Origin: a virus
Virus record (IMG/VR): IMGVR_UViG_3300005933_000015
Location: 1 to 57,474 of that record
Length of the DNA: 57,474 nucleotides
Reading direction: 5' to 3' (one strand)
The notes below the pieces were generated by a model. It had not been told where the DNA came from and did not search any database. It was given only the letters and a program-made list of their open reading frames with translations. Of the stretch, positions 35,665-51,821 are shown in pieces; positions within the stretch are counted from its first letter, which is position 1, and each line of letters begins with the position of its first letter. A program made the position numbers and the translations under genes.

Positions 35665-36256
35665 TTTTAAAGACTGGATGTTTACTGAACCAGTTAATAT
35701 TATTCATGATAAAAAGTTATTTGATCATAAATTACTTTCTTCTATTTCTGCAGAAGAAGGCACTTCTCAAGAATTTCTTAATGATCGTCTAAGCAAAGAC
35801 CCTTATGAAACGGGGTTCCCTTTATACTCTAAAGGGTTTGATATAGGTAATGATAAAAATTCTTGTGATGAGTGGGAATCCGTGTCTAAGAAGATGGACA
35901 TTGATATGATAGAAGCGATTGGTGTTAAGTTCAGCGCTCTGAAGATGTACTATCCTGAAGACGGGTTTATCGGCTGGCATAATAACTGCAACTGTCCAGG
36001 ATACAACTTGGTTATGTCATACAGCGAAACCGGAAACGGATACTTTCAGTATCTAGACCCAACGACCAAGCAAATAGTTCGTATGCAAGATGTTCCAGGA
36101 TGGAGCGCTAAGGTGGGTTACTTCGGATCGTTCACAGAACCTGATAAAATCTTTTGGCATTGCGCTCGTACTCATGAGCCTAGAATTACAGTATCTTACG
36201 TGACACCAGACCAATACATGTGGGAATGCATGATAGAGGATATTCAGAGCGAGTAA
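35615..36256 (+). CDS. 2OG/AspH-type oxygenase-like protein (213 aa)
   Basis: Cupin-fold hydroxylase-like protein. The key region is YYPEDGFIGWHNNCNCPGYN with His122 and Asn124 in the HxD place, then FWHCARTHEPRITVSYV with His182 as distal iron ligand and Arg190 as 2OG contact. The acidic ligand is replaced by Asn, as in AspH-type enzymes that use two His, or it may be catalytically weak. Overlaps the upstream transferase by 50 bases (a start at Met22, 35678, would remove this). Its end overlaps the convergent gene by 13 bases. Substrate unknown. Confidence 0.65.
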   Translation: MQVVSIKNKQLLQILNDFKDWMFTEPVNIIHDKKLFDHKLLSSISAEEGTSQEFLNDRLSKDPYETGFPLYSKGFDIGNDKNSCDEWESVSKKMDIDMIEAIGVKFSALKMYYPEDGFIGWHNNCNCPGYNLVMSYSETGNGYFQYLDPTTKQIVRMQDVPGWSAKVGYFGSFTEPDKIFWHCARTHEPRITVSYVTPDQYMWECMIEDIQSE

Positions 36257-36894
36257 TATTGCTTAGACAAATCGCCATTGTATAAACATATCATCCTCTC
36301 GGGCATATCATACACACCATCTACCATTCTAGAATGTCTTTTTGGGTCTCTCTGATCATACCCCCAAACTTTACAATAAACCCAATGTGAAGGTAGAACG
36401 TTTATATGGTCTATAAACTCTTGCTCCATAAAGTCATCATTCCCATCATACTTCAATTGATAGTAGTTGGGATCTTGTATAAATCGATTTTGAAATATAC
36501 TACACTGCGCATCCCATATCATTATGCTACTATTGATAGAAGTTAGCCCATCAGTAGGACCAAGTACACTTTTCCACTCAGCAGGAATAACATAAACTCC
36601 TTTGGTTGGCGCATAAGACAATATCTCGTCTATGTTGTTTTGAATATCTATGTCTAGATCAAAGAATACATTATGCCCTTCTAGGGTTAGTATCCACAGT
36701 TTCCACCAATAAGACTCCACATCATTTTTAGGCAATTCTGTTATTTGAATACCGCTGTCGATGTCACTTGGGTCTTCGGTAAAGCATATAAAATTAAACT
36801 TTATAGTGGTATTATCTTGAACTAACTTATATAAACGGTTTACATGAGCGGCAGAATACTTGTCGCCCCATTTTAGACAGATTACATTTACCAT
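36244..36894 (-). CDS. glycosyltransferase-like protein, array copy 3 (216 aa)
   Basis: GT-A-type protein closely related to those at 37301 and 38389. Each copy opens with a strand and the phrase WGDKYS, here VNVICLKWGDKYSAAHVNRL, then ends strand 4 with the DxD-containing FFDLDIDIQNN (Asp79, Asp81) and has SINSSIMIWDA, a typical GT8-like block. Last gene of the alternating minus-strand array. The ATG overlaps the end of the methyltransferase-like gene (ATGGTAA). It should transfer a sugar from a nucleotide donor; neither donor nor acceptor can be read from sequence. Confidence 0.75.
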   Translation of the reverse strand: MVNVICLKWGDKYSAAHVNRLYKLVQDNTTIKFNFICFTEDPSDIDSGIQITELPKNDVESYWWKLWILTLEGHNVFFDLDIDIQNNIDEILSYAPTKGVYVIPAEWKSVLGPTDGLTSINSSIMIWDAQCSIFQNRFIQDPNYYQLKYDGNDDFMEQEFIDHINVLPSHWVYCKVWGYDQRDPKRHSRMVDGVYDMPERMICLYNGDLSKQYYSL

Positions 36895-37304
36895 TTCTCA
36901 CCTACAATCGTATAGTAATTGACTCCATTAAACTTTGTGGTAGATGCAAAATTTACTTCATCTAGTTGAGACTGTTCAATAAGAGCCTCTTTAGATGTTG
37001 TTCTATTGACATGTTCGTCGCAATACCTATTGTTAGACTGTAGTAAGTAAGTTGCTGGTAGAGTTATTACTCGCATTGGATACATGTGTTCGCAGCATAG
37101 GTTTATGATTAAGTTGTGAGTGCCATTATTTATTTCTTCAAACCTATAATTAACATTAGACACCTTATCAATCCAGTCTATCTGATCATACTTGGTGAAT
37201 GGTAGCTCTGCACCGGAAACAGATCCCAGTATCAAAACATGCTTATCAACATGAAGTTCCATCACCCGCATTATTTCTATTGCATATTCCGCAGATAATT
37301 TCAT
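36888..37304 (-). CDS. degenerate methyltransferase-like protein, array copy 2 (138 aa)
   Basis: Clearly related to the C-terminal half of the methyltransferase-like protein at 47778: INLCCEHMYPM, YLLQSNNRYCDEHVN, QSQLDEVNF and NYYTIVGEKW match INTSCEHIT, VLQSNNYEIKEHV and the end motif there. The N-terminal SAM site is reduced to VLILGSVSGAE, and the DIDP acidic motif is missing, so SAM binding is doubtful. It may act as a binding or partner protein for the neighbouring glycosyltransferases. Start ATGA overlaps the upstream gene. Confidence 0.65.
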   Translation of the reverse strand: MKLSAEYAIEIMRVMELHVDKHVLILGSVSGAELPFTKYDQIDWIDKVSNVNYRFEEINNGTHNLIINLCCEHMYPMRVITLPATYLLQSNNRYCDEHVNRTTSKEALIEQSQLDEVNFASTTKFNGVNYYTIVGEKW

Positions 37305-37969
37305 AACATACCTAGTTCATGCATTTCGAGTTGACCTGGCTGAGTTTCAAAGGTATATATGATAGGTTCTACTGAAGGAGTTTCATTATGATAGGATGCA
37401 ACTAATGGCCTAGGAACAAAGTCAAATTTACTCATATGTTCTGAACTCAAGTAGTTGTCAGAACCATTTATACATACAAAAAATATGTACTCAGAGTTCT
37501 TCACTATATGTTCCCATATTTCCTTGGTATCAGAGGTGTCTTCCCAAACAATTATGCTGCTATTGGTAACTCCACGATAACAAAGATATGCATTATGCGC
37601 GGAGTTTATACCAGCATCGTCTTGCCAGTGTGATCTATTAATCAGTATCTTATTTGCGTGAAGTTCTGTAATTTTATTTAAATTACCTTGAATCAGTATA
37701 TCCAAGTCTAGATATACTTTCTTTCCCATGATACCCCAACAATTAGGTTCCCATATATTGCACTTGGGTTTATCCGGAAAGCGACCATCCATAATAGGTT
37801 GGAATTTGCTAAACGGTAGTTCTATCGCACCATCTATACCTAATACTTTATCTGTTTGGCAATAGAACGCAAATTCGCCAATGTAATTATCCTTTACAGA
37901 TTCATACAACTTCTGCACATATTTGGTACTGTACTTATCGCCCCATAAAGAACAAATGAAACTAATCAT
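37301..37969 (-). CDS. glycosyltransferase-like protein, array copy 2 (222 aa)
   Basis: Second transferase of the array. I start at ATG 37969, which overlaps the previous stop (ATGATTAG), where the family start ISFICSLWGDKYSTKYVQ begins; a longer reading to 38026 adds residues inside the upstream gene. DxD at VYLDLDILIQG (Asp88, Asp90), then GVTNSSIIVWED. A Cys-containing insertion WEPNCWGIMG precedes the DxD, differing from the other copies. Probably a different donor or acceptor than its neighbours; inference. Confidence 0.75.
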   Translation of the reverse strand: MISFICSLWGDKYSTKYVQKLYESVKDNYIGEFAFYCQTDKVLGIDGAIELPFSKFQPIMDGRFPDKPKCNIWEPNCWGIMGKKVYLDLDILIQGNLNKITELHANKILINRSHWQDDAGINSAHNAYLCYRGVTNSSIIVWEDTSDTKEIWEHIVKNSEYIFFVCINGSDNYLSSEHMSKFDFVPRPLVASYHNETPSVEPIIYTFETQPGQLEMHELGML

Positions 37970-38396
37970 TTCTACCCCATACAATGTAAGAATTAATTCT
38001 ACGATGTGCGATGTGTTTAGTCGCATATACGGTATGTATATTATTCTGCGTTATTAATTGCTTGCAAGAAGTGACTACATTACAATCGCCAGGATGGTTA
38101 TCATCACCGCCGCATATAATTAATACACCATTATATAATTTACCGATTGGATAAGTTTTCTGAGCATTCATATGAATAATGCAATTTGAAAGAGGAGGAG
38201 TCTCAAATATAACATCTACTATATTGCAATTAGAAATATTCTTAAACTTAGGGTCTATATCATAATATGTTAAAGAAATACCCATTGGTGCAACAACCGC
38301 AAATTCATTAAATGTATTCCCCGGAGCAATTATAGATGCATCTAATTCACCCGACTCTAACAACCATTCTATTGCTTGGTAAGTATCTTCACGCAT
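37962..38396 (-). CDS. methyltransferase-like protein, array copy 1 (144 aa)
   Basis: Shares with the full-length relative at 47778 the acidic SAM-site motif YYDIDPKFK and the following 'N-I-V-D' spacing, then CIIHMNAQKTYPIG (equivalent of CEHMYPM in the 36888 copy). It is shorter than normal class I methyltransferases (about 200 aa) and its glycine motif I is modified (IIAPGNTFNEF). I start at ATG 38396, overlapping the previous stop (ATGCGTGA); the longer reading lies inside the upstream gene. Function uncertain, perhaps methylation of a glycan. Confidence 0.65.
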   Translation of the reverse strand: MREDTYQAIEWLLESGELDASIIAPGNTFNEFAVVAPMGISLTYYDIDPKFKNISNCNIVDVIFETPPLSNCIIHMNAQKTYPIGKLYNGVLIICGGDDNHPGDCNVVTSCKQLITQNNIHTVYATKHIAHRRINSYIVWGRND

Positions 38397-39120
38397 CGTA
38401 GGACTCCCATAATTCCTTAGCCCACCCCTTGGTCTCATGAAGTTCTAATGCGTCCTTAGCGGTCCGATTAAGACGGATGTGAGAGGTGTTGAATAGTGCT
38501 ATCTTGTGTCCAACTTTCTTCTCATTAAGAGCGTTATCATAATTGTAATTGTACGCTATGCCTTCATCCCAAGTGTCTAATCTATCTTTCCAGTAATGTT
38601 GATAAAACAAATACTTATCTAACGAGTTATATGTAAAGAATATCTTCTCAGAGTTTTCTTGTGTATAATCATATAACCATTGACCACTATCACTCGACCA
38701 ATATACAAACGAACTATTGATATGACACGATGCACCGCGCCCATAATTAAACATTGTTCGTTTTTGTAAATCGAACCAGTAATTGAATATCAACTTTGGT
38801 TTAGTGCTCTTTGTTGTAACTAATTCAGTTATGTTGTCATGTATTAGTACATCTAAGTCGATCCATACATTATGTTCCTCATGAGATAAGTTAAACAAAC
38901 ATAACTTCTCCCTAGTGAATACTCTATCCTTGGGATAATTAAATCGATCAAAGGAATTGTAATCTATAATATATACTTCAGGGCGAATACCTTTTTTATC
39001 ATCTGTTATGCAGTGAAATTTAAATGGCGCATCAATGTGCTTCACTAATGAACCATATAGTCGGTTAACATAGTCGCAGGAATATTTGTCTCCCCATTTA
39101 AATGTAAATATATTAATCAT
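38389..39120 (-). CDS. glycosyltransferase-like protein, array copy 1 (243 aa)
   Basis: First gene of the minus-strand array. Same family opening INIFTFKWGDKYSCDYVNRL, DxD at VWIDLDVLIHDN (Asp88, Asp90), HINSSFVYWSS, and C-terminal helix. The gene is divergent from the radical SAM gene at 39132, with only 11 bases between the start codons, so the promoters must lie inside the opposite genes or be shared; TATAGATA on the minus strand (39132-39125) is one mismatch from a late promoter. Its stop overlaps the next start. Confidence 0.75.
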   Translation of the reverse strand: MINIFTFKWGDKYSCDYVNRLYGSLVKHIDAPFKFHCITDDKKGIRPEVYIIDYNSFDRFNYPKDRVFTREKLCLFNLSHEEHNVWIDLDVLIHDNITELVTTKSTKPKLIFNYWFDLQKRTMFNYGRGASCHINSSFVYWSSDSGQWLYDYTQENSEKIFFTYNSLDKYLFYQHYWKDRLDTWDEGIAYNYNYDNALNEKKVGHKIALFNTSHIRLNRTAKDALELHETKGWAKELWESYDA

Positions 39121-39131
39121 ACCATATCTAT

Positions 39132-40100
39132 ATGCAAGAAGTTAGAATACCATTAAAGAATATTATCAAGTTCGGTCAGAGAACTATGCTTGAGGATGAT
39201 GTATTTAATGTAAGTTGGATATTAGGAAGATTCTGCAACTATAAATGCTCGTACTGTTGGCCATACGCAAATAGTAGCACATTAGACTTTTCCGAACTTT
39301 ATACTTATAAATCTGTAGTGGACCGTATCCACGCCCAAAGCAGCGCAAATGGTTTTTCAAAAATACATTGGAGTTTATCTGGGGGCGAACCTACAACATA
39401 CAAACATTTGATTGAGTTGGTTAGTCATATAGCAGAGTATGAAGAAGAACAAACGATCCATATGACTAGCAACATAAGCCCTGGAATTAAATGGTGGGAT
39501 AAGTGGGAGCGAGATACTAGAAAATTCGCAAGGCGTTCTATCACAGCAAGTTTTCATGCAGAGTTTGCTAAGGAGAATAAGTTCATAGAGAAGTGTTTAC
39601 ATCTAAACAAATTAGGTATTCGCTTGGTGGTCAATCAAGTAATGGTTCCAGAACTATTTGGTGAGACATATGCAAGACTTGCTAAGATGTATGAACTAGG
39701 TATTAATGTTACGATGAAACCTCAAAGTGACGAAACTGCAAGTTCAATTGTATATGGATATACCGAAGAAATGCTTTCATTAATGCAACAAGGGTTTCCA
39801 CAGAAGTATGACGGCAGGGAAATTTCACAGATCGTTATGCATGATGTTGGCGGTGAAACTTATTACATGGATCAAGCAGAGAGGTTCAATGCGTTTGGGT
39901 TTAATGAGTTTTCTGGATGGAAATGTAATGCAGGATATCAAGGGTTGATAATTCGAGGAGATACTATTAAACGGGGTTACTCATGTAATGATGAACCTAT
40001 AGGAAACCTACAAGAATTTAAATTATTCTCTAGTCCAGTAAAGTGTTCCACTCCACGGTGCGTCAGTTCAGCAGATAGTAAGATACCTAAGTTTAAATAA
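39132..40100 (+). CDS. radical SAM enzyme A (C-terminal Cys motif type, 322 aa)
   Basis: Radical SAM protein with the CxxxCxxC cluster motif at FCNYKCSYC (Cys35, Cys39, Cys42), the SAM-binding SGGEPTTYK, and a TIM-barrel-like middle. The C-terminal part GWKCNAGYQGLIIRGDTIKR ... YSCN ... KCSTPRCVSSAD carries further Cys residues that could bind an auxiliary [4Fe-4S] cluster, like SPASM/twitch proteins that modify peptides or sugars. Related to the enzymes at 43652 and 45362 through the W-x-x-G-x-CNY core and the C-terminal GW-C-NAG block. Tail-to-tail overlap of 8 bases with the oxygenase gene. Confidence 0.82.
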   Translation: MQEVRIPLKNIIKFGQRTMLEDDVFNVSWILGRFCNYKCSYCWPYANSSTLDFSELYTYKSVVDRIHAQSSANGFSKIHWSLSGGEPTTYKHLIELVSHIAEYEEEQTIHMTSNISPGIKWWDKWERDTRKFARRSITASFHAEFAKENKFIEKCLHLNKLGIRLVVNQVMVPELFGETYARLAKMYELGINVTMKPQSDETASSIVYGYTEEMLSLMQQGFPQKYDGREISQIVMHDVGGETYYMDQAERFNAFGFNEFSGWKCNAGYQGLIIRGDTIKRGYSCNDEPIGNLQEFKLFSSPVKCSTPRCVSSADSKIPKFK

Positions 40101-40788
40101 TTTCTAAACCAAATTGAGATGGGAGCATTTCTTGAACAAGTTCTATGTGGTTTGGCTCAATATCAAATGATACTGTAGATGCAGTTTCAACCTTAAAATT
40201 GTCAATTATACTTCGTTTGTTTGCACGGTTTAACCACGGACTTATTATACTATCAAACACATATCTAAACTGATAAAATGTACTATCTTTCAGTTGTATC
40301 TTTACTCGCACGGCGGAATTTAACATACAGTGCCGTAGAAGTTTCCTAACAACTAATTGATATCTATCAGACTCGCCGAAGTTACATGCAGTATGAATAT
40401 ATCCCGCGTCCATATGATACCATTTCCCATCTGGCATCAGTTTATGCATAACCTCGTCTGAAAGATTTATAAGGTACGACATCTCGGATGCAATGGTTAA
40501 ATGATATCTATCATCGATATCAGCATGTGATAGGTATGATTGTCCTGGCGAAAGTTTAATAATCCTAGCCTCACCTATTTCAATATCATTTAAAGAACAT
40601 ATTATATTTTCCCAAACCGTATTGATAAATTTAGGTTTACATTTCCACGGATCATAAAAGAAATTTCCAGTGGGTTCGTTAATAACGGTTTTAGAATCTA
40701 TAACAGGCAAGTTATTATTTGCTTGCAGTAAGTCATCTGGTGTTACGCTATATTTTGTAGGTGTTATCATTCTGGCATATATATTCAT
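40093..40788 (-). CDS. aspartyl/asparaginyl beta-hydroxylase-like oxygenase (231 aa)
   Basis: Fe(II)/2OG oxygenase of AspH type. Core: ARIIKLSPGQSYLSHADIDDRYHL with His88 and Asp90, then WYHMDAGYIHTACNFGESDRYQLV with His132 and Arg142. A C-terminal domain of about 80 residues (KIQLKDSTFYQFRYVFDS) is of unknown type. It lies between two radical SAM genes on the other strand. Expected to hydroxylate an amino-acid or sugar group. The upstream region contains CTAAATAC, a poor late-promoter look-alike. Confidence 0.75.
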   Translation of the reverse strand: MNIYARMITPTKYSVTPDDLLQANNNLPVIDSKTVINEPTGNFFYDPWKCKPKFINTVWENIICSLNDIEIGEARIIKLSPGQSYLSHADIDDRYHLTIASEMSYLINLSDEVMHKLMPDGKWYHMDAGYIHTACNFGESDRYQLVVRKLLRHCMLNSAVRVKIQLKDSTFYQFRYVFDSIISPWLNRANKRSIIDNFKVETASTVSFDIEPNHIELVQEMLPSQFGLEII

Positions 40789-40830
40789 GAGGAACTTTAG
40801 TATTTAGTTTAATTAGTTAGGAAATTTTTA

Positions 40831-42102
40831 ATGAGTGGATGTGATAGTAAAACATTTTGTATGCATCCTTTTACAGGACTCGCAACAAGGGAAGACGGCG
40901 CGGTTAAGGTGTGTTGTAGAAGTGCTCCTATTGGGTTTATTCAAAAAGAATCTCTTGAGAAGATTTGGAATAATTCTATGATGTTGAAAGTTCGTAAACA
41001 AGTATTAAACAATGAGCGACCCGAGGTATGTAAACCATGTTTCGACTTAGAAGACCAAGGTGTCGAGAGTTTGCGTCAAAGACATATTAAGAACACTATT
41101 CCAGAATCTAGAGTTAACCTATACCCAGAAGCACTTGATAAACTAAATGATGATTACACAATGGCATTTGAACTGCCTACGATGGAAATTAAACTTAACA
41201 ATCTATGCAATCTGAAATGTAGAATGTGTAACCCATTAGACAGCACTAGTTGGAAAGACTGGGATCAGGTTACAGAATTCTACGCAAAGGACAGGAATAT
41301 ACTAATACCCATTGTAGAGTCGTTAGTAGATACTCCAGGAAAATATATTGGTGAGTTTGACGACACTGATAATTGGTGGAAAAGTTTTGAAAAATTATTA
41401 CCACACTTCAGGCGAGTAGAATTTGCTGGAGGGGAACCTCTTATGGATCCACAGCATTACAAGATACTTGATATGCTTAAACCATATGCTCATCAGATTG
41501 AGTTGAAGTATGCTACTAATGGAACAACATTAGGTATTAGCAAGGGTAGGACTATTCATGAGTACTGGCCGCATTTTAAGCAGATCGCGGTTAATGTTAG
41601 TATTGACGGTATACATGACGTCTACGAATATGTTCGGGGTAACGGTAAGTTTAGCACTATAGAATCTAACATCGAGGTGTTTAAATCTTTTCCAAATGTG
41701 AGTAGAGTTGTTGGTGCATTCACAGTACAGTCAAACAATATATTACAGATAGACAAGGTTATCGATTATTTCATAAACAAATTGGGCATTGTATTTTATT
41801 CTCACAGAGTTAGTTATCCTTTAGCATTAAGTGCGCAAGTAATACCGCCAGATCTGAAGGAAGGTGTTATAGAACGCTTAGAAGAAATGAAACTAGAGAT
41901 ATTAGATTATCCTCGCATTCAAGAAAATAAGTTGTTGGAAACTGTAACTAGGCAACAGATTCAAGATAATATAAATTTCTTGAAGGCAAAGTGTATGTAT
42001 GATTCGCATTGGCAAGACTGTATAGATTTTAATATGAAATTAGATAAGACTAGAAATCAAAGTTTATTGCAGGTAATACCAGAATTCAAGCCCTATGTAT
42101 GA
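40831..42102 (+). CDS. radical SAM enzyme B (N-terminal Cys domain, twitch-type, 423 aa)
   Basis: Different architecture from enzyme A. An N-terminal Cys domain comes first: CMHPFTGLATREDGAVKVCC (Cys10, Cys28, Cys29) and CKPC (Cys67, Cys70), a SPASM/twitch-like auxiliary cluster. The radical SAM core follows with LCNLKCRMC (Cys126, Cys130, Cys133), FAGGEPLMD, YATNGTTLG and VNVSIDGIHDVYEYVRG. Related to the enzyme at 46359 over its full length. AGGAAAT ribosome site. Its stop overlaps the SGNH gene by 8 bases. Substrate unknown; such proteins often act on sugars or peptides. Confidence 0.85.
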   Translation: MSGCDSKTFCMHPFTGLATREDGAVKVCCRSAPIGFIQKESLEKIWNNSMMLKVRKQVLNNERPEVCKPCFDLEDQGVESLRQRHIKNTIPESRVNLYPEALDKLNDDYTMAFELPTMEIKLNNLCNLKCRMCNPLDSTSWKDWDQVTEFYAKDRNILIPIVESLVDTPGKYIGEFDDTDNWWKSFEKLLPHFRRVEFAGGEPLMDPQHYKILDMLKPYAHQIELKYATNGTTLGISKGRTIHEYWPHFKQIAVNVSIDGIHDVYEYVRGNGKFSTIESNIEVFKSFPNVSRVVGAFTVQSNNILQIDKVIDYFINKLGIVFYSHRVSYPLALSAQVIPPDLKEGVIERLEEMKLEILDYPRIQENKLLETVTRQQIQDNINFLKAKCMYDSHWQDCIDFNMKLDKTRNQSLLQVIPEFKPYV

Positions 42103-42931
42103 ATCTATATGCTTAGAAGGAGATACTGAAGTTGCTAATACGATTAGCAAGTTTTACTCAGGGGATAGCGAAAAGATATTTAATAAAAATATTTCTATTA
42201 TCCCAGATTGGTATTGGTATGATGTACCAATTTCATATGAATTCAACTCTAAGGGTTATAGGATGCCTCAGTTTGACGAAGTTAACTGGGATAATTATTT
42301 TATTGCTTTGGGGTGTAGTAATTCTGTTGGAGTTGGATTGCCTTTAGGGGTAACATATACTGGATTATTGAGTGATGAACTGAATATTGATTGTGTTAAC
42401 TTAGGATTATCTGGGGCGAGTAATGATTTTATCACTATGAACTTCATACATAGTATAGACAAACTGCCAAAGAAACCCAAATTCGTAGTAGTTAACTGGA
42501 CTAAACCATATAGGTTTATGTGGTTCAAAAGAACACTTGATATAGAATGGATATATAATTGGGTTCCAAGTGTATCCGCATGGGGTAAGAATAAAGTACC
42601 GGATTTCTGTAGGCATGAAGATTATGTCAGCAGATCTTATGCTAATTTGTCTAATCACGATTTAACTTATCACAATATAAATTCATGGAAGTATAAGCGA
42701 AAGTCTATTCAGTTAATTTGTTCTGCATTAGGAGTGGGTTATGTAGACTTCAGTATGTTTTCGGATTTTTCTGAATACTGCGAGTATATATCAATTGATA
42801 ATTTCGATGTGAATTCTTATTGGGCTCGAGATATTCAGACCGCAAACTTAATAGATCCAACTAAATGCAATGGACATGTTGGTAGGTATCATCATAAACT
42901 AGCATACGAATATACGATAAATCAATTATGA
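42095..42931 (+). CDS. SGNH-type hydrolase-like protein 1 (278 aa)
   Basis: SGNH/GDSL-like esterase or acyltransferase. Block I: FIALGCSNSVGVG with Ser75; block II-III: VNLGLSGASNDF (Gly, Asn); block V: DPTKCNGHVGRYHHKLAYEY with the Asp and His. The N-terminal 65 residues are unique and Trp/Tyr-rich. The enzyme probably removes or transfers acyl groups on the glycan or peptide made by this cluster; this is inferred. Start and stop overlap the neighbouring radical SAM and PP-loop genes by 8 and 4 bases. Confidence 0.72.
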   Translation: MYESICLEGDTEVANTISKFYSGDSEKIFNKNISIIPDWYWYDVPISYEFNSKGYRMPQFDEVNWDNYFIALGCSNSVGVGLPLGVTYTGLLSDELNIDCVNLGLSGASNDFITMNFIHSIDKLPKKPKFVVVNWTKPYRFMWFKRTLDIEWIYNWVPSVSAWGKNKVPDFCRHEDYVSRSYANLSNHDLTYHNINSWKYKRKSIQLICSALGVGYVDFSMFSDFSEYCEYISIDNFDVNSYWARDIQTANLIDPTKCNGHVGRYHHKLAYEYTINQL

Positions 42932-43659
42932 TTAACATAGTAGATAAAGTTGAAATACCATACGATCCTTCTTGGGGTAATATTGCAATAAGCATGTCAG
43001 GAGGAGCAGACAGCACTATACTTGCATATCTACTATGCGATATGATTAAACAAAACGATAACTCTACAGCAGTTCATGTGATCAATCATGTTAGAATGTG
43101 GCAAACGCGCCCATGGCAAGAGTATGACGCACTGAGAATATATGAAGTACTATGCGAAATGTTTCCACAAATTATATTTCATCGACATGTTAATTTTATA
43201 CCTCCAGACCTAGAATATGGTGTTTCTGGACCAACTATAAAAGATGCATATGGTAGAACTGTATCAGGAGACAACATTGCAAAACGCTCATTTGCAGAAT
43301 ATGTATGTAAGAAGTTTTCTGTAGACTGTCATTACAATGGAGTTACTAAGAATCCTCCAGTTCAGATTCGAGGTGCTATGACCGAGCGAGAACTCACTAA
43401 AAATGAATCTAACACACATTTAGAATTTACTACTCATATGGGAATATTTGTTAGTCATCCATTGCGGTTTGTAGATAAATCTTGGGTGTACCGACAGTAT
43501 AGGGACAACGGTCTATTAGAACTATTTGAGCAGACAAGAAGTTGCGAAGGTGAGTTTGACGGATTAGACTATAAGTCATATGGACCATATCAACCAGTCC
43601 CAGTATGCGGTAAGTGTTTCTGGTGTGTAGAAAGAGAATGGTCTATTAAAAATGCATAG
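42928..43659 (+). CDS. QueC-like PP-loop ATP pyrophosphatase (243 aa)
   Basis: N-type ATP pyrophosphatase: SGGADS (Ser24-Ser29) is the PP-loop that binds ATP and adenylates a substrate. The C-terminal zinc-type motif TRSCEGEF ... VPVCGKCFWCVERE (Cys206, Cys227, Cys230, Cys233) matches the QueC pattern C-x(n)-CGxC-xxC. QueC converts carboxy-deazaguanine to preQ0 with ammonia. Here no FolE, QueD or QueE partners are recognised, and the gene sits among radical SAM and SGNH genes, so it may instead form an amide or nitrile on a cluster-specific acid. Overlaps neighbours by 4 and 8 bases. Confidence 0.78.
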   Translation: MINIVDKVEIPYDPSWGNIAISMSGGADSTILAYLLCDMIKQNDNSTAVHVINHVRMWQTRPWQEYDALRIYEVLCEMFPQIIFHRHVNFIPPDLEYGVSGPTIKDAYGRTVSGDNIAKRSFAEYVCKKFSVDCHYNGVTKNPPVQIRGAMTERELTKNESNTHLEFTTHMGIFVSHPLRFVDKSWVYRQYRDNGLLELFEQTRSCEGEFDGLDYKSYGPYQPVPVCGKCFWCVEREWSIKNA

Positions 43660-44539
43660 CGTTCGTAATAGATGGTATAAGGAAAATACCGTAAAGGTAG
43701 AATGGAACATAGGCAAGCGATGTAACTACGACTGCTCATATTGTCCTGCCGAGATACATGACAACCATAGTAAGAGCACACCTATAGATGAACTAATATC
43801 AGCGGCAGACCAGTTGCTTCAGATAAACAAGCATATGAGGATTAGTTTCACGGGTGGAGAACCATGTGTCAATAAAGGTCTACCGCAGTTAATAGAATAT
43901 ATTAAGTTGAACGGAGTAAGTTTCGTAAGTGTCACAACAAATGGTACTATGCCAGCAGATTACTACGCCTGTCAAAGGGTTGATCAGTATGTGTTTAGTG
44001 TACATTTTGAATACGACACCGAAAGGGTGTTAGAAACTATACTATCAATAAATGATCTGAACAAATTTCAAATTGTAGTTCATGTTATGGTGTTAGAAGA
44101 ACAGATAGAGCGTGTGCATAGTGTTGTAGATACACTAGACGTTGCTGGAATTCCATATGTGCTAAGGCGAATCCGTTGGAACAGTGGTTTAAGCAGAGAT
44201 GACTTTGATGACTCTCGATATGAAACCAAAACAATACAGTGGATGGTTAACAGCGCTGCGACAGTTAAACCCAATTGTATTGTAGATGACACAACTTTAA
44301 TACATGCAAACGATGTATTGAAAACAAATACTAATCAATTCCAAGGGTGGTCATGTAACGCAGGAATAGAAAGTTTGATGATAGATCAGGATGGAGAAGT
44401 GTACAGAGCAACTTGTAGAGTAGGTGGTAGATTAGGAAACATATATAATGAGAAGTTTACTATACCGAATGAATGGATAACATGCACTAGAACGTTCTGC
44501 ACATGTGAATCCGATATACCATTAACAAAATGCAAATAG
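43652..44539 (+). CDS. radical SAM enzyme C (C-terminal Cys motif type, 295 aa)
   Basis: CxxxCxxC motif RCNYDCSYC (Cys24, Cys28, Cys31), FTGGEPCVNKG, TTNGTMP and a C-terminal auxiliary site: GWSCNAGIESLMIDQDGEVY, TCRVGG, CTRTFCTCE and a last Cys. The same class as the enzymes at 39132 and 45362 (shared GW-C-NAG block and terminal Cys series). It overlaps the PP-loop gene by 8 bases, indicating co-expression. Likely a SPASM-type enzyme with at least two [4Fe-4S] clusters; substrate unknown. Confidence 0.82.
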   Translation: MHSVRNRWYKENTVKVEWNIGKRCNYDCSYCPAEIHDNHSKSTPIDELISAADQLLQINKHMRISFTGGEPCVNKGLPQLIEYIKLNGVSFVSVTTNGTMPADYYACQRVDQYVFSVHFEYDTERVLETILSINDLNKFQIVVHVMVLEEQIERVHSVVDTLDVAGIPYVLRRIRWNSGLSRDDFDDSRYETKTIQWMVNSAATVKPNCIVDDTTLIHANDVLKTNTNQFQGWSCNAGIESLMIDQDGEVYRATCRVGGRLGNIYNEKFTIPNEWITCTRTFCTCESDIPLTKCK

Positions 44540-45372
44540 ACAATTTAGACACAAGGAAATATAAGAGATTCTTTGCATTTGGATGCAGTTTCACTTGGTA
44601 CTACTGGCCGACGTGGGCAGACATCATCGGAAGAGAGATACCCTACTATGAAAATTGGGGACGCGGCGGAGCAGGAAACCAGTTCATATTTAATTCATTA
44701 ATAGAATGTAACTTGCGGAATAAGTTCACAGAAGATGATCTGGTTATAGTAATGTGGACTAGTTGTTCTAGAGAAGATAGATACGTTGATAATGATTGGT
44801 TATTATCTGCAACGGAAAATCGTAAATCTGTATATGGTAATACATGGATGCGAAGGTTTGCTAATCAAGACAAGGGTTTGATGATACGCGATTTTGCATC
44901 CATACAATCAACACAAACCTTATTAGATTCGTTTAATGTAGACTGGGTTAATTTAAATAGTCTACCTCTGATAAGATTTGATATAGATCGAGCAGAAAGA
45001 GATATCAAGAATGGTATTGCTTCTATAAACGACCTAGAAACTCGCTGGGCAGATCAGCAACAACACTTGCATGAAAATAATGGATACTTTGATGAATACC
45101 TAAAAGGTAAATCTGTAGTAGAGTTATATAAAGATATATTTCCCAATATCAAAGAGTCTCTGTATAGAACAATACTTAATAACAAAAAGAGACCCAACTT
45201 CGGAGATCTACATCCAACACCAATCGAATCCCTAAATTATTTGAATAAAGTAATACCTAATAATTTAAAGTCGAATGAATATGTCAACGGTTGGAATGAT
45301 ATGGTTTTGATGATAGAAATTGTAAATCAAATGCCAGAAAAATTTGTTAGGAAACTCCCATTCAGGTTTTAG
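44530..45372 (+). CDS. SGNH hydrolase-like protein 2 (280 aa)
   Basis: Canonical SGNH signature: FFAFGCSFTWYYW with Ser20 in the GCS block, WGRGGAGNQFIFN (Gly, Asn), VIVMWTSCSRED, and FGDLHPTPIESLNYL carrying the Asp/His pair. Similar proteins in marine phages are annotated as SGNH esterases. It overlaps the radical SAM gene upstream by 10 bases and the convergent radical SAM gene downstream by 11 bases. Together with the gene at 42095 it forms a second acyl-hydrolase in the same coupled group. Confidence 0.78.
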   Translation: MQIDNLDTRKYKRFFAFGCSFTWYYWPTWADIIGREIPYYENWGRGGAGNQFIFNSLIECNLRNKFTEDDLVIVMWTSCSREDRYVDNDWLLSATENRKSVYGNTWMRRFANQDKGLMIRDFASIQSTQTLLDSFNVDWVNLNSLPLIRFDIDRAERDIKNGIASINDLETRWADQQQHLHENNGYFDEYLKGKSVVELYKDIFPNIKESLYRTILNNKKRPNFGDLHPTPIESLNYLNKVIPNNLKSNEYVNGWNDMVLMIEIVNQMPEKFVRKLPFRF

Positions 45373-46366
45373 ACTTAGAAATATGTGTATCTGGTTGACA
45401 TGAACAATTTATCCTAGGGCATGTAATACTATCTAGTTTAAACATAGACATATCGAATTCATCGATGAAGTCCTCTGAGAAAATGTTTAGATTAGACCCT
45501 TTGAACAACTGTTCTTGACACGACCCCTTTACCGATCCATCATAACTGATAACTAGGTTTTCCTTTGCTACATCACATTTCCATCCATGGAAAAAGTTCC
45601 ATCTACCGTTAATATGAGTTTCTGGGCGACAAGAAACTGCTGATCCATCGTCAAATATAGCAACGCTCTTTACAACGCTCAATACATCCATTCGAGGTAA
45701 TATCCATTCTCCAGGAGGTATACGTTTGAGTGAGGGGTTAATGTATGCAAGTTGATCGGGAGTGTATGAATTGATATCTTTACCAGGAGACTCTACAACA
45801 CTTTTTGCTTCAACAATCCACAGTTCTTTACTCCTTAGCATCTTGTTAATAAGACCGACACATTTATCCCAAGCGGTCGCATCCATCAACATTATAGAAT
45901 TAATAATAACACCTTTACGATACAACATGTCAGCAACACTTATGAAGTGTTCTATGTTCACGAATTCATGATGACAACTTAACACTGCTTTGTCTATGTG
46001 TTCAGAATTTTCTTCCCACCAACGAAGAGTCCTAGATCCGTTGGAAGTTACTTGGATTCTGACATCATGTTGTTCTTTGATCTCTCGACAGAACTGCCCG
46101 AGGTGAGGCCACATTGTAGGTTCACCCCCTCCTACTAAATTTATCAGATATGTATTTTTACCAAACTTCTCATTATATACATCAAACAATCTGCGAAAGT
46201 TTTTTATCACAGTGTCAATATTCTTTGGATACCTATACACTGCATCTTTAGAACCCGGAAAGCAATATCCACAATCATAGTTACATATATCAGTTGGCCA
46301 GAATCTAATATCAAGAACATTAGATTCTTGGGTATTGACGATTCGTATTATTTTATTTTTATTCAT
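45362..46366 (-). CDS. radical SAM enzyme D (C-terminal Cys motif type, 334 aa)
   Basis: CxxxCxxC motif ICNYDCGYC (Cys28, Cys32, Cys35), GGGEPTMWPHLG, VTSNGSRTL, and a C-terminal block GWKCDVAKENLVISYDGSV ... CPRINCSC. The same architecture as enzymes at 39132 and 43652. The N-terminal KIIRIVNTQESNVLDIRFWP strand leads to the barrel. Its ATG overlaps the stop region of the next upstream gene on the minus strand by 8 bases, so it is co-translated with the enzyme at 46359. Substrate unknown. Confidence 0.82.
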   Translation of the reverse strand: MNKNKIIRIVNTQESNVLDIRFWPTDICNYDCGYCFPGSKDAVYRYPKNIDTVIKNFRRLFDVYNEKFGKNTYLINLVGGGEPTMWPHLGQFCREIKEQHDVRIQVTSNGSRTLRWWEENSEHIDKAVLSCHHEFVNIEHFISVADMLYRKGVIINSIMLMDATAWDKCVGLINKMLRSKELWIVEAKSVVESPGKDINSYTPDQLAYINPSLKRIPPGEWILPRMDVLSVVKSVAIFDDGSAVSCRPETHINGRWNFFHGWKCDVAKENLVISYDGSVKGSCQEQLFKGSNLNIFSEDFIDEFDMSMFKLDSITCPRINCSCQPDTHISKSKT

Positions 46367-47777
46367 ATATCAAATGAGCAAGCTCTGGAAATATTTCTAT
46401 AAATTTAGTATTACGGATACCATCCATCTTAGTAACATACTCTGAGAAAGCGCTGAGTTCTTTGCTATTATCTAAACCGTCCATAAAATCTAGTATTGCT
46501 TGCCAGCGCTTCCATCCATATGGATTAGTTTCCCAGAAGTTCTCATCAGTCCTATAGTTTACATATAACCATTCTTTAAATTCTGCAAATATTCTATGAA
46601 CTTCCTCTTTATCTTTCTTAGGTAGCGTTGTAATACTTAACCAAGTTGGGATATATAACAAATGCATATTAAATATGCCTCCACCCGCTTCGGTATCGTT
46701 ATATACATTCTGCAGATTCACTTTAGTAAACCCTTGTGTTATTTTCCATTTAGCAAACTCAGGTAAATGTTTAATATTCATTATCTGTATGGCGGTTGCA
46801 ATACTAACATGAATATTATCTGGGGTATTATCCAATTTATGTAAGTTACGCACAATAGTATCCCAATTACTAGGATACCTGATGTATGCGTTCCTATCGG
46901 TGAGTGCATCAACACTAAATCCTATCTTAACTTGCTTGAAATTTTTCCACAAATCAATAATATCATCATTCAATAGTAGTCCGTTGGTGTTATATCGCAA
47001 TTGGATTTTATCATGATATCCTTGTCTGATAATTTCTTCAACAAATTTTCTATGCTCTTTAATCATTAGGGGTTCTCCCCCTGCGAAATACACTTGCTTC
47101 AAATTAGGTATCTGAGCATACATTTCTTTCCAGAAGTCAGGGTTCTCATACCATGAGTTATTGAATTTAGTTGAGTCCCATGCCATCTGTTTGCGTAAAG
47201 ATTCATGACTCAGTATCGGGATTAACTTTTTATGATCTGCGACCCATCTACTGCTATCATGGGGACTACACATAATACATTTTATGTTACATGTATGCCC
47301 AAGTCGTAGGTCTAAATACGCAAGTTTTTCTGGTACAGTTCCATCCCCTTCGGTATCATCTACAAGTTTTCCAATATCATAACCATCTTCCATCCAAGTT
47401 CCGGTCTCCCATATTCGTTTACTAACAACATGTTTAGATTCTTCTGCGAAACACTTAGTACATGAAGCTGGAATTTCTCCAGATAACATAGTGGTGCGCA
47501 CGCTTTTCATATAATCATTATTCCACGCACTCATTGGAGTTTCTCTACCAAAATTTGCTGGAGAACCAGTTTCATTCTTCACCAACCCAATTGTATGATC
47601 TTCCCCGGCACCACTGCTATTGCTATTACAACATAGGCGCATATCACCATTAGGACGAGTTGCAAAGTGCATCCAAGGCAAAATACAGAAAGTATCAGAT
47701 CCAGTTATATCAGATATCTTTTTTTGATATCTACCAATGGTGCTATCTTCGGGTTGTATCCAATGTACTTTATTCAT
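46359..47777 (-). CDS. radical SAM enzyme E (N-terminal Cys domain, twitch-type, 472 aa)
   Basis: Same architecture as the enzyme at 40831: N-terminal CILPWMHFATRPNGDMRLCC (Cys31, Cys49, Cys50) and CTKC (Cys106, Cys109), then TCNIKCIMC (Cys163, Cys167, Cys170), FAGGEPLMIKEH, YNTNGLLL and IGFSVDALTDRNAYIRY. The pair thus uses two cluster-binding regions before the barrel. It abuts the methyltransferase gene upstream with no gap. Expected role: radical-based modification of a sugar or peptide; no substrate evidence. Confidence 0.85.
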   Translation of the reverse strand: MNKVHWIQPEDSTIGRYQKKISDITGSDTFCILPWMHFATRPNGDMRLCCNSNSSGAGEDHTIGLVKNETGSPANFGRETPMSAWNNDYMKSVRTTMLSGEIPASCTKCFAEESKHVVSKRIWETGTWMEDGYDIGKLVDDTEGDGTVPEKLAYLDLRLGHTCNIKCIMCSPHDSSRWVADHKKLIPILSHESLRKQMAWDSTKFNNSWYENPDFWKEMYAQIPNLKQVYFAGGEPLMIKEHRKFVEEIIRQGYHDKIQLRYNTNGLLLNDDIIDLWKNFKQVKIGFSVDALTDRNAYIRYPSNWDTIVRNLHKLDNTPDNIHVSIATAIQIMNIKHLPEFAKWKITQGFTKVNLQNVYNDTEAGGGIFNMHLLYIPTWLSITTLPKKDKEEVHRIFAEFKEWLYVNYRTDENFWETNPYGWKRWQAILDFMDGLDNSKELSAFSEYVTKMDGIRNTKFIEIFPELAHLIYE

Positions 47778-48380
47778 TTAATCTTTGTGTCCAATAATCA
47801 TATATCTATTGTATAGTGGTAAAGGTAGTTCTCCAGCATATGTGATAGAACCTAAGTTGCTTTGATGTGTAAATTCTTCTAACGACCTCGATATCCTTAC
47901 ATGCTCTTTTATCTCGTAGTTATTACTTTGCAGTACAACTAGGGCATCGCCAGGGATTTTATCTAACCAGCTGTCGTATTGATCTTGTGTTATGTGCTCG
48001 CATGAGGTATTTATTGCGACATCTGCAAGAGAATAAATACTACACATATCAGAGGTTATTGCTTGGAACATCCCTTTACTATACTCGACACGGTTAATTT
48101 CTTCTGCTGTGCGTTTACAAGTGGGGTCGATATCAATGCTACGGATGCTTGTTATATCGAAATCACTTTGAAACAACATACTGGATAATATGCCCGTCCA
48201 ACCTCCAAAGATATCAATGGAGATATCCTCTTGTTTATTTAAAATGTCTGTCAGTTTGTTAACAACCCATTCTTTACTGGATACTTGTCCACGCCACATC
48301 GAATCCATAACCCTAGTTGGATCATCTGATGTTCGGATTGCATGTATCCAATAATGTAAGTGTTCTAAGTCTATTCTCAT
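47778..48380 (-). CDS. class I SAM methyltransferase-like protein (200 aa)
   Basis: Full-length relative of the two short proteins in the GT array. Motif I region IDIFGGWTGILSSMLF, acidic motif SIDIDPTCKRTA, then ITSDMCSIYSLADVAINTSC and EHITQDQYDSWL; end LPLYNRYMIIGHKD. The N-terminal helix block HYWIHAIRTSDDPTRVMDSM and the SMWRGQVSSKEW segment are also distinctive. It is the first gene of the minus-strand radical SAM unit; a TATAAT-like sequence on the minus strand at 48413-48408 could be its -10. Substrate unknown. Confidence 0.76.
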   Translation of the reverse strand: MRIDLEHLHYWIHAIRTSDDPTRVMDSMWRGQVSSKEWVVNKLTDILNKQEDISIDIFGGWTGILSSMLFQSDFDITSIRSIDIDPTCKRTAEEINRVEYSKGMFQAITSDMCSIYSLADVAINTSCEHITQDQYDSWLDKIPGDALVVLQSNNYEIKEHVRISRSLEEFTHQSNLGSITYAGELPLPLYNRYMIIGHKD

Positions 48381-48444
48381 AATTATGACCCTGCTGAATC
48401 AATAAATATTATACTACATAATTATATAGTGAGATTTTAAATAT

Positions 48445-48452
48445 TATAAATA
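48445..48452 (+). promoter_or_regulatory. T4-type late promoter for the distal fibre operon
   Basis: Exact TATAAATA, 32 bases before ATG 48485, in the 104-base gap between the island and the fibre genes. A TTCGGAG ribosome site follows. Confidence 0.85.
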
Positions 48453-48484
48453 TACATGTATAGAATAAACAATTCGGAGATTTT

Positions 48485-48913: not shown

Positions 48914-48919
48914 AACTAT

Positions 48920-48946: not shown

Positions 48947-49201
48947 ATGGCAGATAGAATTGTCGCTAAGGTTATAACTAACCCAACAGTCACCGCAAAA
49001 ACTTTTACTCCTAGGAACCTTCAGGCGACTAGCATAGGTATTAGCGGTGGTATCGCGATGGCAGATTTATCGGATGTGGTGATACCAGATTCTCAAAGAT
49101 TAACTGGTGCATTGATGACATACGATGCTGAAAGAGGCGGATTTGTTGTTCTATCAGAAATTTCAAGTCCTAACTTAAAACTAAATGGAGGTGCATTGTA
49201 A
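48947..49201 (+). CDS. small virion-associated protein (84 aa)
   Basis: A small protein with DRIVAKVITNPTVTAKTFTP and a second half LTGALMTYDAERGGFVVLSE that resembles the N-terminal attachment segments of phage fibres. Probably a connector between fibre modules; inference. It has its own late promoter and lies one base before the next fibre gene. Confidence 0.65.
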   Translation: MADRIVAKVITNPTVTAKTFTPRNLQATSIGISGGIAMADLSDVVIPDSQRLTGALMTYDAERGGFVVLSEISSPNLKLNGGAL

Positions 49202-49202
49202 A

Positions 49203-51821
49203 ATGGCCGGAACAGTAATTAAATTAAAAAGTAGTCCCCAGTCGGGCGGCTCATCAGCACCATTAGATAATACGCTTGAGGTAGCAGAACCGGCGTATAC
49301 ATTCTCCAATGGTATTTTATGGTTAGGACAAGACGACGGTGGAGGACTTGGTGGGACAACTTCTGTTCAAATCGGTGGTTCTTACTTTACTACTAAACTA
49401 GACCACAACCTAGGCGTACTGACCGCAAGTTCTGCACTTTTAGTTGACTCTAACAGTCATATTGATAAAGTCATTGCTGGTGCTCTACAGTTAACTACAT
49501 CGGGTGGTGCTGGTCAGATTGTTAGCAGCATTGCGACAACCATAGACGGAACATCTTCAGATACACAATTGGTTACTGCTCTTGCAGTCAAATCATTTGT
49601 TCAAGCTGAAACATCTAGTATTGAACTTGGTGAGATATCTAATGTAACTCTGGGAACTCTCGCAGCAGGTAACGTACTAGTATACAACTCTGCTTCGGGT
49701 GAGTGGATTAACCGCGCCCTAAGTGGTGATGTTACTATCAATGCATCTGGTGTTGCTGATATCAGTGCATCTGGTGTTAGTGCTGGTAATTATGGTTCTG
49801 CAACTGCAATTCCAATATTTACAGTTGCAGCAGATGGTCGTATCACAAGTGCTGGTACTGCAAACATTGCAACAACTCTGACAATTACTGGTGATGATGC
49901 AATCACACAGGGTATTGATCTATTAACCGAAACGCTCACTTTAACTGGCGGCACGGGCCTTACCACTGTAACAACAAGTAATAGAATTACTGTAAACCTT
50001 GACGATACCGCTGTAACTGCGGGTACATACGGTTCTACTGCTGCAATTCCTCAAATTACTATTGATGCTCAAGGTCGTATTACAAGTGCAACCACTCTTA
50101 GTGTTGCTACTGTACTTGATATTGCTGGCGACTTTGGTACAGACTCTGTTAACCTATTGGATGACACTTTCACCATTTCTGGTGGAACTGGTCTAACCAC
50201 TACTGCAACTGATAATGCACTTACAATTGTACTAGATGATACTGCTGTAGCCGCTGGTTCATACGGTTCTGCTACAGTTATTCCAGTACTAACTGTTGAT
50301 GCTCAAGGTCGTATCACAGGTGCAACTACACAAACAGTTTCTACCAATGTAACCGTTGCAGGTGACACTGGAACTGGTAATATTGCAACCGGATCTACAC
50401 TAACTGTTGCGGGTGGAACAGCTTTAACCTCAGTATTCTCTGCGGGTACTGTTACTGTAACACTAGATGATACTGCTGTAACTGCCGGTGCATATGGTTC
50501 TGCAACTACAATTCCTCAGTTCACAGTTGATGCGCAAGGTCGTATTACTGCTGCTGGAACTGTTGCGATTAACGCAAATTCATTCGGAACTGTTTCTGTA
50601 ATCGATGCAGACTCTGGATTTAGTTGGTCTGATAACGGCACTGCTGTCTCTGCTGCTAATGCCGCGACTCTAACATTCGTATCTGGGTATGGCGTAAACG
50701 TTGATGTAGACTCAGCATCAGATGCAATTCGCTTCAATAACACTGGTGTTACTAGTGCCACAGCTGGTACATACATCACGGTTGATGCATCAACTGGTGA
50801 TATCACAATCGGCACAAACGCGACTGCTGCTAATACAGTAAGTACTCTAGTTGCTCGTGACGGTTCTGGTGACTTTGCTGCTAATAAAGCAACACTGAAC
50901 GAATTACAAGTTGATAATATTAATATCAATGGTAATGTAATTTCTAGTACTGTTACTAACGAAAACATTCAGATCTCACCTAATGGCACGGGTATTGTCG
51001 AAATTACGGCAGAAACCAACATCACAGGCAATGTCGTAATTGCTGGTGACTTTACTGTCAATGGTCAAACTACTACAATTAATGTTCAACAACTAGTTGT
51101 TGAAGATCCCATCATTTACCTATCTAGTGCCGCCGCAGGCAATGCTGTAGACATTGGTTTTGTAGGTAACTACAATGATGGTACATATGCACACACTGGT
51201 TTGGTTCGTCATGCTGCAGATGGTGTATACTACCTATTTGATGGATATACTCCTGACATTGATGTCGACGGTAACATACTTGACATAAATCATGCATCGT
51301 TAAATATTGCTTCTTTGCAGGCAAACGTCGTAGGTGCTTTGATTGGTACTGCTGAGACTGCTACTAAACTTCTAACCACAAGATCAATATCGTTAACTGG
51401 TGATGTCGTTGGTACGCTGACATTTGATGGTAGTGCCGATGTTAGTATGACTGCAACTATCCAGGCCAACTCTGTTGCTCTGGGTACTGATACTACTGGT
51501 AACTATGTTGCAACTCTAGCAAGTGCAAACGGTGGTCTAATAGTAACTGGTTCTGGATCAGAAACTGCTGGTGTTACAATCGAACTAGATGTAACAGATA
51601 GTCTTTTTGTTGAAGGTGTTCAAGATGCTGCTGGTGCATTGTTCTCCAATGGTACACAAAGTCATATCAGCATTACATACGACGACGCAAACAATGCTAT
51701 CAATGCATCTGTTCCAGTCGCAACAACTTCTGTTAAGGGTGTTGCTTCTTTCAGTGCTGACAACTTTGCAGTAACTTCTGGTGTAGTTACTATCACGGTT
51801 ATCGATGGAGGAACATTCTAA
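49203..51821 (+). CDS. tail fibre protein with YGS-DAQGRIT repeats (872 aa)
   Basis: A fibre built of about four repeats of roughly 78 residues, each with the phrase VTAGAYGSATTIP and TVDAQGRIT (from about residue 195 to 455), then a GDFTVNGQTTTINVQQLVVE module with a DGTYAHTGLVRHAADGVYYL segment. The start is ATG 49203; a longer reading from 49185 lies within the previous gene. The C-terminus ends with VTITVIDGGTF. Receptor-binding fibre role is inferred from the repeats, which are common in T4-like marine phage fibres. Confidence 0.82.
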   Translation: MAGTVIKLKSSPQSGGSSAPLDNTLEVAEPAYTFSNGILWLGQDDGGGLGGTTSVQIGGSYFTTKLDHNLGVLTASSALLVDSNSHIDKVIAGALQLTTSGGAGQIVSSIATTIDGTSSDTQLVTALAVKSFVQAETSSIELGEISNVTLGTLAAGNVLVYNSASGEWINRALSGDVTINASGVADISASGVSAGNYGSATAIPIFTVAADGRITSAGTANIATTLTITGDDAITQGIDLLTETLTLTGGTGLTTVTTSNRITVNLDDTAVTAGTYGSTAAIPQITIDAQGRITSATTLSVATVLDIAGDFGTDSVNLLDDTFTISGGTGLTTTATDNALTIVLDDTAVAAGSYGSATVIPVLTVDAQGRITGATTQTVSTNVTVAGDTGTGNIATGSTLTVAGGTALTSVFSAGTVTVTLDDTAVTAGAYGSATTIPQFTVDAQGRITAAGTVAINANSFGTVSVIDADSGFSWSDNGTAVSAANAATLTFVSGYGVNVDVDSASDAIRFNNTGVTSATAGTYITVDASTGDITIGTNATAANTVSTLVARDGSGDFAANKATLNELQVDNININGNVISSTVTNENIQISPNGTGIVEITAETNITGNVVIAGDFTVNGQTTTINVQQLVVEDPIIYLSSAAAGNAVDIGFVGNYNDGTYAHTGLVRHAADGVYYLFDGYTPDIDVDGNILDINHASLNIASLQANVVGALIGTAETATKLLTTRSISLTGDVVGTLTFDGSADVSMTATIQANSVALGTDTTGNYVATLASANGGLIVTGSGSETAGVTIELDVTDSLFVEGVQDAAGALFSNGTQSHISITYDDANNAINASVPVATTSVKGVASFSADNFAVTSGVVTITVIDGGTF
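49791..50560 (+). repeat. ~234-bp degenerate repeats in the fibre gene
   Basis: The phrase for YGS-x(4)-IP starts at 49791, 50028, 50262 and 50493, with periods of 237, 234 and 231 bases. Copies are diverged in DNA but well kept in protein. Confidence 0.8.

Follow-up and report, generated by a model that had tools for sequence, protein, structure and literature searches.

Why would a virus encode five radical SAM (S-adenosylmethionine; rSAM) enzymes almost side by side? The question is raised by the IMG/VR record IMGVR_UViG_3300005933_000015, positions 1 to 57,474 of which were analysed here as a single stretch of 57,474 nucleotides (the window). The source is a marine T4-like virus of bacteria: protein family matches identify relatives of gp6, a gp5-type hub/lysozyme, gp59, gp32 and gp88 in its backbone, and its gp6 is closest to those of Methylophilales phage Melnitz (41%) and the pelagimyophages. 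A second, separate IMG/VR contig of 14 kb has the same arrangement and matches positions 38121–52178 at 99.96% identity, which argues against an assembly artefact. The five genes are designated T1a, T1b and T1c (type 1) and T2a and T2b (type 2; Table 1).

All five open reading frames (ORFs) are present at the starts and on the strands given in the initial annotation, and each protein scores above the curated Pfam cut-off for PF04055 (29.5 bits), which places it in the radical SAM superfamily; a PF04055 search of the whole record found no sixth rSAM gene. The two architectures that had been proposed are likewise borne out, with every named motif in place. Type 1 proteins combine an N-terminal CNYxCxYC motif (CNYKCSYC in T1a, CNYDCSYC in T1b, CNYDCGYC in T1c) with a C-terminal GW-C-(N/D) motif (GWKCN, GWSCN and GWKCD, in the same order) and additional cysteines, and type 2 proteins have an N-terminal C..CC..CxxC pattern preceding CNLKCRMC (T2a) or CNIKCIMC (T2b); GGEP is found in all five. 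Both type 2 proteins are full-length members of the NCBIfam subfamily NF033640 (N_Twi_rSAM, cut-off 170 bits), aligned over residues 6–422 of T2a and 27–469 of T2b, and the SPASM match of T2a (PF13186) is located at its N-terminus. None of the type 1 proteins passed a curated equivalog model; their C-termini have no Pfam SPASM match, contain four to five cysteines that are about 100% conserved, and lie in a region where model confidence is below 60.

Table 1. The rSAM island and its surroundings, in window positions.
Feature	Coordinates	Strand	Evidence and remarks
T1a, rSAM type 1, 322 aa	39132..40100	+	PF04055 41 bits; C-terminal auxiliary Cys C265, C285, C305, C310
T2a, twitch-domain rSAM, 423 aa	40831..42102	+	NF033640 320.6 bits; N-terminal C10/C28/C29/C67/C70, then CNLKCRMC
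T1b, rSAM type 1, 295 aa	43652..44539	+	PF04055 48 bits; auxiliary C235, C255, C278, C283, C285
T1c, rSAM type 1, 334 aa	45362..46366	-	PF04055 41 bits; auxiliary C264, C283, C316, C321, C323
T2b, twitch-domain rSAM, 472 aa	46359..47777	-	NF033640 392.6 bits; N-terminal C31/C49/C50/C106/C109, then CNIKCIMC
AspH, Asp/Asn beta-hydroxylase-like Fe(II)/2-oxoglutarate enzyme, 231 aa	40093..40788	-	PF05118 28.4 bits (cut-off 22.6)
SGNHa, SGNH/GDSL-like hydrolase	42095..42931	+	weak PF14606, E 0.047; variable member
QueC-like PP-loop ATPase, 243 aa	42928..43659	+	phrog_1550 E 2.5e-6; SGGADS, C206, CxxCxxC (227-233)
SGNHb, SGNH/GDSL-like protein	44530..45372	+	no Pfam match; assigned by motif and a weak resemblance to family c15; homologs in 26 loci
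MT, putative SAM-dependent methyltransferase, 200 aa	47778..48380	-	motif IDIFGGWTG...; no Pfam match
Tail-fibre protein	30905..33220	+	upstream of island; phrog_25848 tail fiber, E 9.8e-12
Repeat-rich tail-fibre-like protein	49185..51821	+	downstream of island; sequence repeats, no Pfam match; position as in Melnitz tail-fibre region
Flanking block: glycosyltransferase-like and methyltransferase-like ORFs	36244..39120	-	outside conserved core

The enzymes are apparently working ones. In alignments of 103–140 sequences per orthologous group (105 for T1a), the cysteine triad of the SAM cluster is 99–100% conserved in each of the five groups, and exactly one further set of cysteines is kept at about 100% in each, with four members in T1a and five in the others; the remaining cysteines vary. 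Because the triad and one auxiliary set are retained, the copies are not pseudo-enzymes: the loss of cluster sites in most of them, examined through cysteine conservation, was not seen. Such a pattern is what would be expected from one auxiliary [4Fe-4S] cluster in each enzyme. Predicted models of T1b (pLDDT 72) and T2b (pLDDT 90) have as their closest folds BlsE, EpeE and viperin in the first case and CteB (the best), viperin and anSME in the second, all of them weak matches that recover the right superfamily and do not tell sugar, nucleotide and peptide enzymes apart. Two specific identities were discarded. Similarity to prokaryotic viperin (pVip) reaches 52.4 bits at best, over the rSAM core only, against a cut-off of 180 for NF038283, with equally partial PADLOC matches; QueE models score at most 39 bits against equivalog cut-offs of 206–260.

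Related loci were retrieved from IMG/VR with alignments of the two types, which matched at least 548 (type 1) and at least 586 (type 2) stretches; contigs in this database are redundant and partly fragmentary, and the counts from scans are lower bounds. Alignments were needed for this purpose: when T1b or the QueC-like protein was the single query, only the near-identical contig came up. In the 168 loci fetched, the rSAM ORFs fall into the same five groups, typical members scoring 200–750 bits against their own window protein and about 40–140 bits against another. Maximum-likelihood trees resolve T1a, T1b, T1c and T2a as one clade each (98–100% support) and T2b as a clade with 85/87 support, which rules out a recent duplication of two ancestral genes. 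By these sequence comparisons, the five rSAM genes are distinct orthologous groups and not recent copies. As a set, the genes are shared by dozens to hundreds of contigs from aquatic phages and, in part, by predatory bacteria; the toolkit is thus widespread rather than a one-off. After loci with a protein stretch in common had been merged, 72 independent loci longer than 15 kb were left, with all five groups present in 42 and at least four in 66; T1b is found in 70, T2a in 69, T2b in 68, T1a in 62 and T1c in 48. These counts are biased upwards because type 1 and type 2 sequences served as bait. No such bait was used for an extra rSAM family, c2 (70 of the 72 loci), AspH (65), MT (61) or the QueC-like gene (48).

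Gene order is conserved as well. The initial annotation had paired each type 2 gene with a type 1 neighbour; the pairing holds, with the partners corrected to T2b:T1c and T2a:T1b and with T1a as the odd one. T2b and T1c are same-strand neighbours in 65 of the 74 independent loci having both, T1b and T2a are adjacent in 71 of 101, and gene ends within the pairs often overlap (median gaps of −1 and −5 nt for the two pairs). In the window, the SGNHa and QueC-like genes stand between T2a and T1b. Five separate groups are compatible with the several radical steps or several substrates that had been envisaged, which stand as an inference. The members differ in their diversity: at 50% identity, T1a (105 sequences) and T2a (127) form a single cluster each and T1b and T2b three each, whereas on the same contigs AspH (104 sequences) forms 23 clusters and T1c (103) forms 25. 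Families c2, c4 and c5 are as diverse as AspH and T1c, but multi-copy.

The module is not confined to close relatives of the window. Sixteen IMG/VR carriers checked whole have 3–16 rSAM genes each, and a T4-type portal was found in seven of these large carriers, including all four above 330 kb; the others may be fragments. The gp6 proteins of these carriers are very divergent (about 39–61 bits, against 577 bits for that of the window), and therefore the module is common to distant T4-like lineages, between which, on this sequence evidence, it probably spread by horizontal movement. A search of 50,697 deposited phage records gave none but distant relatives, at best 19–35% identical. In Vibrio phage K566 (positions 149587–174756; locus L227), four type-2-like twitch rSAM genes are interleaved with two GT8 glycosyltransferase genes and a GT4-like gene, and the cluster is followed by an annotated PagP gene and an LpxC homolog (140 bits). 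The last two are phage genes for lipid A remodelling.

Several rSAM genes in one phage had been called unusual, a statement that needs qualifying in view of the carriers just described and of published genomes. Campylobacter phages CP220 and CPt10 (Firehammervirus) have 11–12 rSAM genes and, with them, a five-rSAM module described as interchangeable (PMC2853527). They resemble the present case in being T4-like with five clustered rSAM genes near baseplate genes; in the CP220 module, two further genes are annotated as having nucleotide-diphosphosugar-transferase domains and another encodes an amidinotransferase. Of the five rSAM proteins of this module, three match c2 (90–98 bits), and the amidinotransferase matches c38 (132 bits), an amidinotransferase-like family observed in aquatic viral loci (L024:5381-6415). 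None of its rSAM proteins, however, is an ortholog of T1a, T1b, T1c, T2a or T2b, the highest score being about 50 bits, and the set of AspH, QueC-like and MT genes was not found among the CP220 genes tested. A second T4-like genome, TARA_ERS488813_N000010 of 183 kb, has 12 rSAM genes (Nishimura et al. 2017; PMC5332604), which the paper treats, in its passage on them, as Fe-S related, without assigning a pathway there; it is likened here by count, not by gene identity. Pelagimyophages, whose backbone is of the same type as that of the window, have a hypervariable tail-fibre host recognition cluster with glycosyltransferases and rSAM cassettes (MAGV3 against MAGV16; PMC7029224), a likeness at the level of description. 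NF033640 itself is a subfamily model without a function that lumps T2a and T2b, which form separate clades. Multi-rSAM T4-like phages are therefore already known, and what is new is a far more conserved, syntenic variant.

A counterpart of the module exists in bacteria. Relatives of T1a, T1b and T2b are encoded on chromosomes of Bdellovibrionales, often beside glycosyltransferases, and in trees the Bdellovibrionales sequences are sister to the viral clades. T1a orthologs occur in 15 of 141 Bdellovibrionales genomes, and three of the four GTDB records with T1b-like sequences are metagenome-assembled genomes (MAGs) of this order. The usual cassette consists of T1a, c2 and T2b, joined in many cases by MT and a GT2-like glycosyltransferase gene and in two cases by pyridoxal phosphate (PLP)-enzyme-like and AspH-like genes; several adjoin the GT2-like family c12. 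Likeness to the phage proteins is substantial (450–490 bits for T1a, 520–585 bits for T2b), but the cassettes read contain no T2a or T1c orthologs, and T1b only as divergent, partly split relatives. One cassette has a pheT-like gene as its neighbour and trmD- and rplS-like genes in the vicinity, as read from the sequence, a chromosomal setting; the flanks vary by genome. One copy (T1a, an extra rSAM gene, T2b and MT) lies beside a GDP-mannose-dehydratase-like epimerase, AsnB, GT2 glycosyltransferases and an AT3-SGNH acyltransferase. In three Bdellovibrionales loci (L195:18362-19509, L197:9074-10116, L200:10433-11487) a T1b-/T1c-like enzyme is encoded as two adjoining ORFs, an rSAM core and a C-terminal auxiliary-cysteine domain, a natural split. 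Some MAGs of the order are rich in NF033640 proteins (two genomes have 11 and 16 matches, some of them below the cut-off), and some of these large rSAM clusters (G002 C47, C25 and C18; G001 C21) are accompanied by carbamoyltransferase, MmgE/PrpD-like and B12-rSAM-like genes. In the open-access literature, which includes few subscription papers, we found no description of the orthologous module, its partners or its Bdellovibrionales cassette, nor of rSAM enzymes with O-antigen and Bdellovibrio.

Among the partners, AspH has residues H88xD90, H132 and R142 conserved in at least 97% of 104 sequences, as in the Asp/Asn beta-hydroxylase family, and its closest solved relatives are a beta-hydroxylase and L-proline cis-4-hydroxylase. 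The QueC-like protein scores below the Pfam and NCBIfam QueC cut-offs, and a family profile search of the PDB gave no match; over 75 aligned homologs its cysteines are invariant and SGGADS and CxxCxxC are kept. Canonical QueC has the motifs SGGxDS, YxQxHxxE, VPxRN, YPDC and C(x)8CxxCxxC (PMC13329287). With YxQxHxxE, VPxRN and YPDC absent and the cysteine spacer longer, an assignment to canonical QueC/preQ0 synthesis was rejected, SGGADS and CxxCxxC notwithstanding. Where the QueC-like gene is missing (24 loci), c16, which is PLP-enzyme-like by sequence and has no Pfam match, is found alone in 15. SGNHa homologs were found in 38 of the 168 loci (E 1e-4). The labels of MT, c16, the 2-oxoglutarate (2OG)-enzyme-like families c4 and c5, SGNHb and the glycosyltransferase-like ORFs of the window derive from motifs, without Pfam support. 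Two further rSAM families are seen outside the window: c2, a third type of about 356 aa with its CxxxCxxC motif as CQASCPMC (L062:8916-9983 and 147 other loci), and c13, a 514-aa protein with a long, possibly B12-binding N-terminal domain, in about a third of loci.

In the window, the rSAM island breaks into the tail-fibre/host-recognition region; at the corresponding site Melnitz has consecutive tail-fibre genes, with the large baseplate-region protein on one side and neck genes on the other. In the flanking block, three glycosyltransferase-like ORFs (36244, 37301 and 38389), mutually alignable paralogs with a DLDxxI motif, alternate with two short methyltransferase-like ORFs (36888 and 37962), and one ORF of the block has no relatives among deposited phages. 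A 213-aa ORF (35615-36256) with a GWHNN...H...R pattern may be a 2OG/Fe(II) oxygenase.

What, then, could the module make? On genomic context, we give an even chance to the reading that this conserved, transferable T4-like phage module makes or tailors an unusual carbohydrate, either on host lipopolysaccharide (LPS) or surface glycan in the course of infection or on the virion. Glycan or LPS tailoring is favoured because glycan genes surround such enzymes in four settings: the Bdellovibrionales epimerase/GT2 locus, the other Bdellovibrionales cassettes by c12, K566 and CP220. For the window, the site of the island in a tail-fibre region, of the kind in which pelagimyophages have glycosyltransferases and rSAM cassettes, can be added. 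In such a pathway, each rSAM enzyme would abstract hydrogen from an unactivated carbon, with its auxiliary cluster serving redox or holding the substrate; the QueC-like enzyme would spend ATP on activating a carboxylate, for amidation or ligation; and the product would be decorated by AspH and the methyltransferase and attached by glycosyltransferases. As the core (T1a, T2a, T1b, T2b) evolves slowly and the partners (AspH, T1c, the extra rSAM and 2OG-like enzymes) fast, the clustering suggests a common scaffold with variable decoration, a pattern that would be expected for surface structures selected by phages and hosts. Several points weigh against glycan tailoring. The presence of glycosyltransferases is weak evidence, because such genes are common in T4-like accessory regions, and the glycosyltransferase-like ORFs of the window have no Pfam match, carry their label from a motif only, and did not match the glycosyltransferase families c12, c21, c45 and c46 in profile comparison. 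The closest predicted folds of T1b and T2b mix peptide maturases (EpeE, CteB, anSME) with BlsE, SpeY and viperin at low TM-scores, which is not decisive. Finally, in giant carriers the module and gp6 are separated by 28 kb to well over 100 kb; the tail-fibre position is consequently a feature of the window and not of the module, and tail-gene neighbourhood was dropped as proof of function.

The main rival, which we consider unlikely, is protein modification, in which phage tail-fibre proteins or a host protein would be the target: changes made to their side chains by the rSAM enzymes, glycosyltransferases and AspH would diversify receptor binding. It would suit the location among tail-fibre genes in the window, the action of the AspH family on Asp/Asn or free amino acids, the frequent use of twitch/SPASM rSAM enzymes on peptides (the best fold for T2b, CteB, is a sactipeptide enzyme) and the possible conjugation of deazaguanine to proteins by QueC-like proteins (PMC13329287). 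It fits poorly with the distance from baseplate genes in the giants and with bacterial chromosomes that have the module without tail genes, and one of the closest solved relatives of AspH hydroxylates a free amino acid. If twitch/SPASM enzymes instead matured a short encoded peptide, the product would be a ribosomally synthesised and post-translationally modified peptide, for which the SPASM-like cysteine sets and the fold matches to CteB, EpeE, SkfB and SuiB could be cited. In 154 loci, however, a search for a precursor between the core genes found no conserved small ORF, recurrent small ORFs lying only outside the core (beside T1a/c18/c37, c17/c19 or c4), and it would be unusual for a single peptide to need five separate maturases; we regard such a product as very improbable.

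A diffusible small molecule or lipid made during infection, such as a toxin, signal or cofactor-like compound, appears improbable, if less so than a peptide. The mixture of rSAM, 2OG-like, PLP-like (c16), amidinotransferase (c38), B12-type rSAM (c13) and short-chain-dehydrogenase/reductase (SDR)-like genes does resemble a secondary-metabolite cluster; yet no carrier protein, non-ribosomal peptide or polyketide synthase, or transporter was recognised among the most conserved neighbours, and it is glycosyltransferases and surface-polysaccharide genes that recur in unrelated carriers. Hypermodification of phage DNA or tRNA with 7-deazaguanine or another nucleobase is brought to mind by a QueC-like PP-loop protein beside rSAM enzymes and by one BFVD neighbour of T1b annotated as QueE. 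With the canonical QueC motifs missing (cf. PMC13329287), QueE models far below cut-off and no QueC-like gene in 24 of the 72 independent loci, there is little chance that it is the answer. Equally small is the probability that unrelated auxiliary genes have merely accumulated without a joint pathway: the region is hypervariable and partners such as the SGNH proteins come and go, but the same five groups in the same order and strand, with ends that overlap or nearly do, over dozens of divergent contigs strongly disfavour it.

Glycan tailoring can be carried one step further, to a proposal that we regard as possible but doubtful: T4-like phages and Bdellovibrionales may share an undescribed multi-rSAM pathway to a new C-C-, N- or O-modified sugar or sugar-amino-acid conjugate, which would be displayed on infected cells or virions and control recognition and superinfection. 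Phages with several rSAM genes have been on record since 2010 and were regarded as curiosities. The module is now defined by its synteny, its orthologous groups, the partners named above and its counterpart in bacteria, and its chemistry is therefore testable in cultivable systems. If surface glycans are indeed remade, the module would equip phages with a set of radical chemistry for changing the cell surface that is among the richest known, and open-water T4-like phages would be tied to predatory bacteria through a shared surface chemistry.

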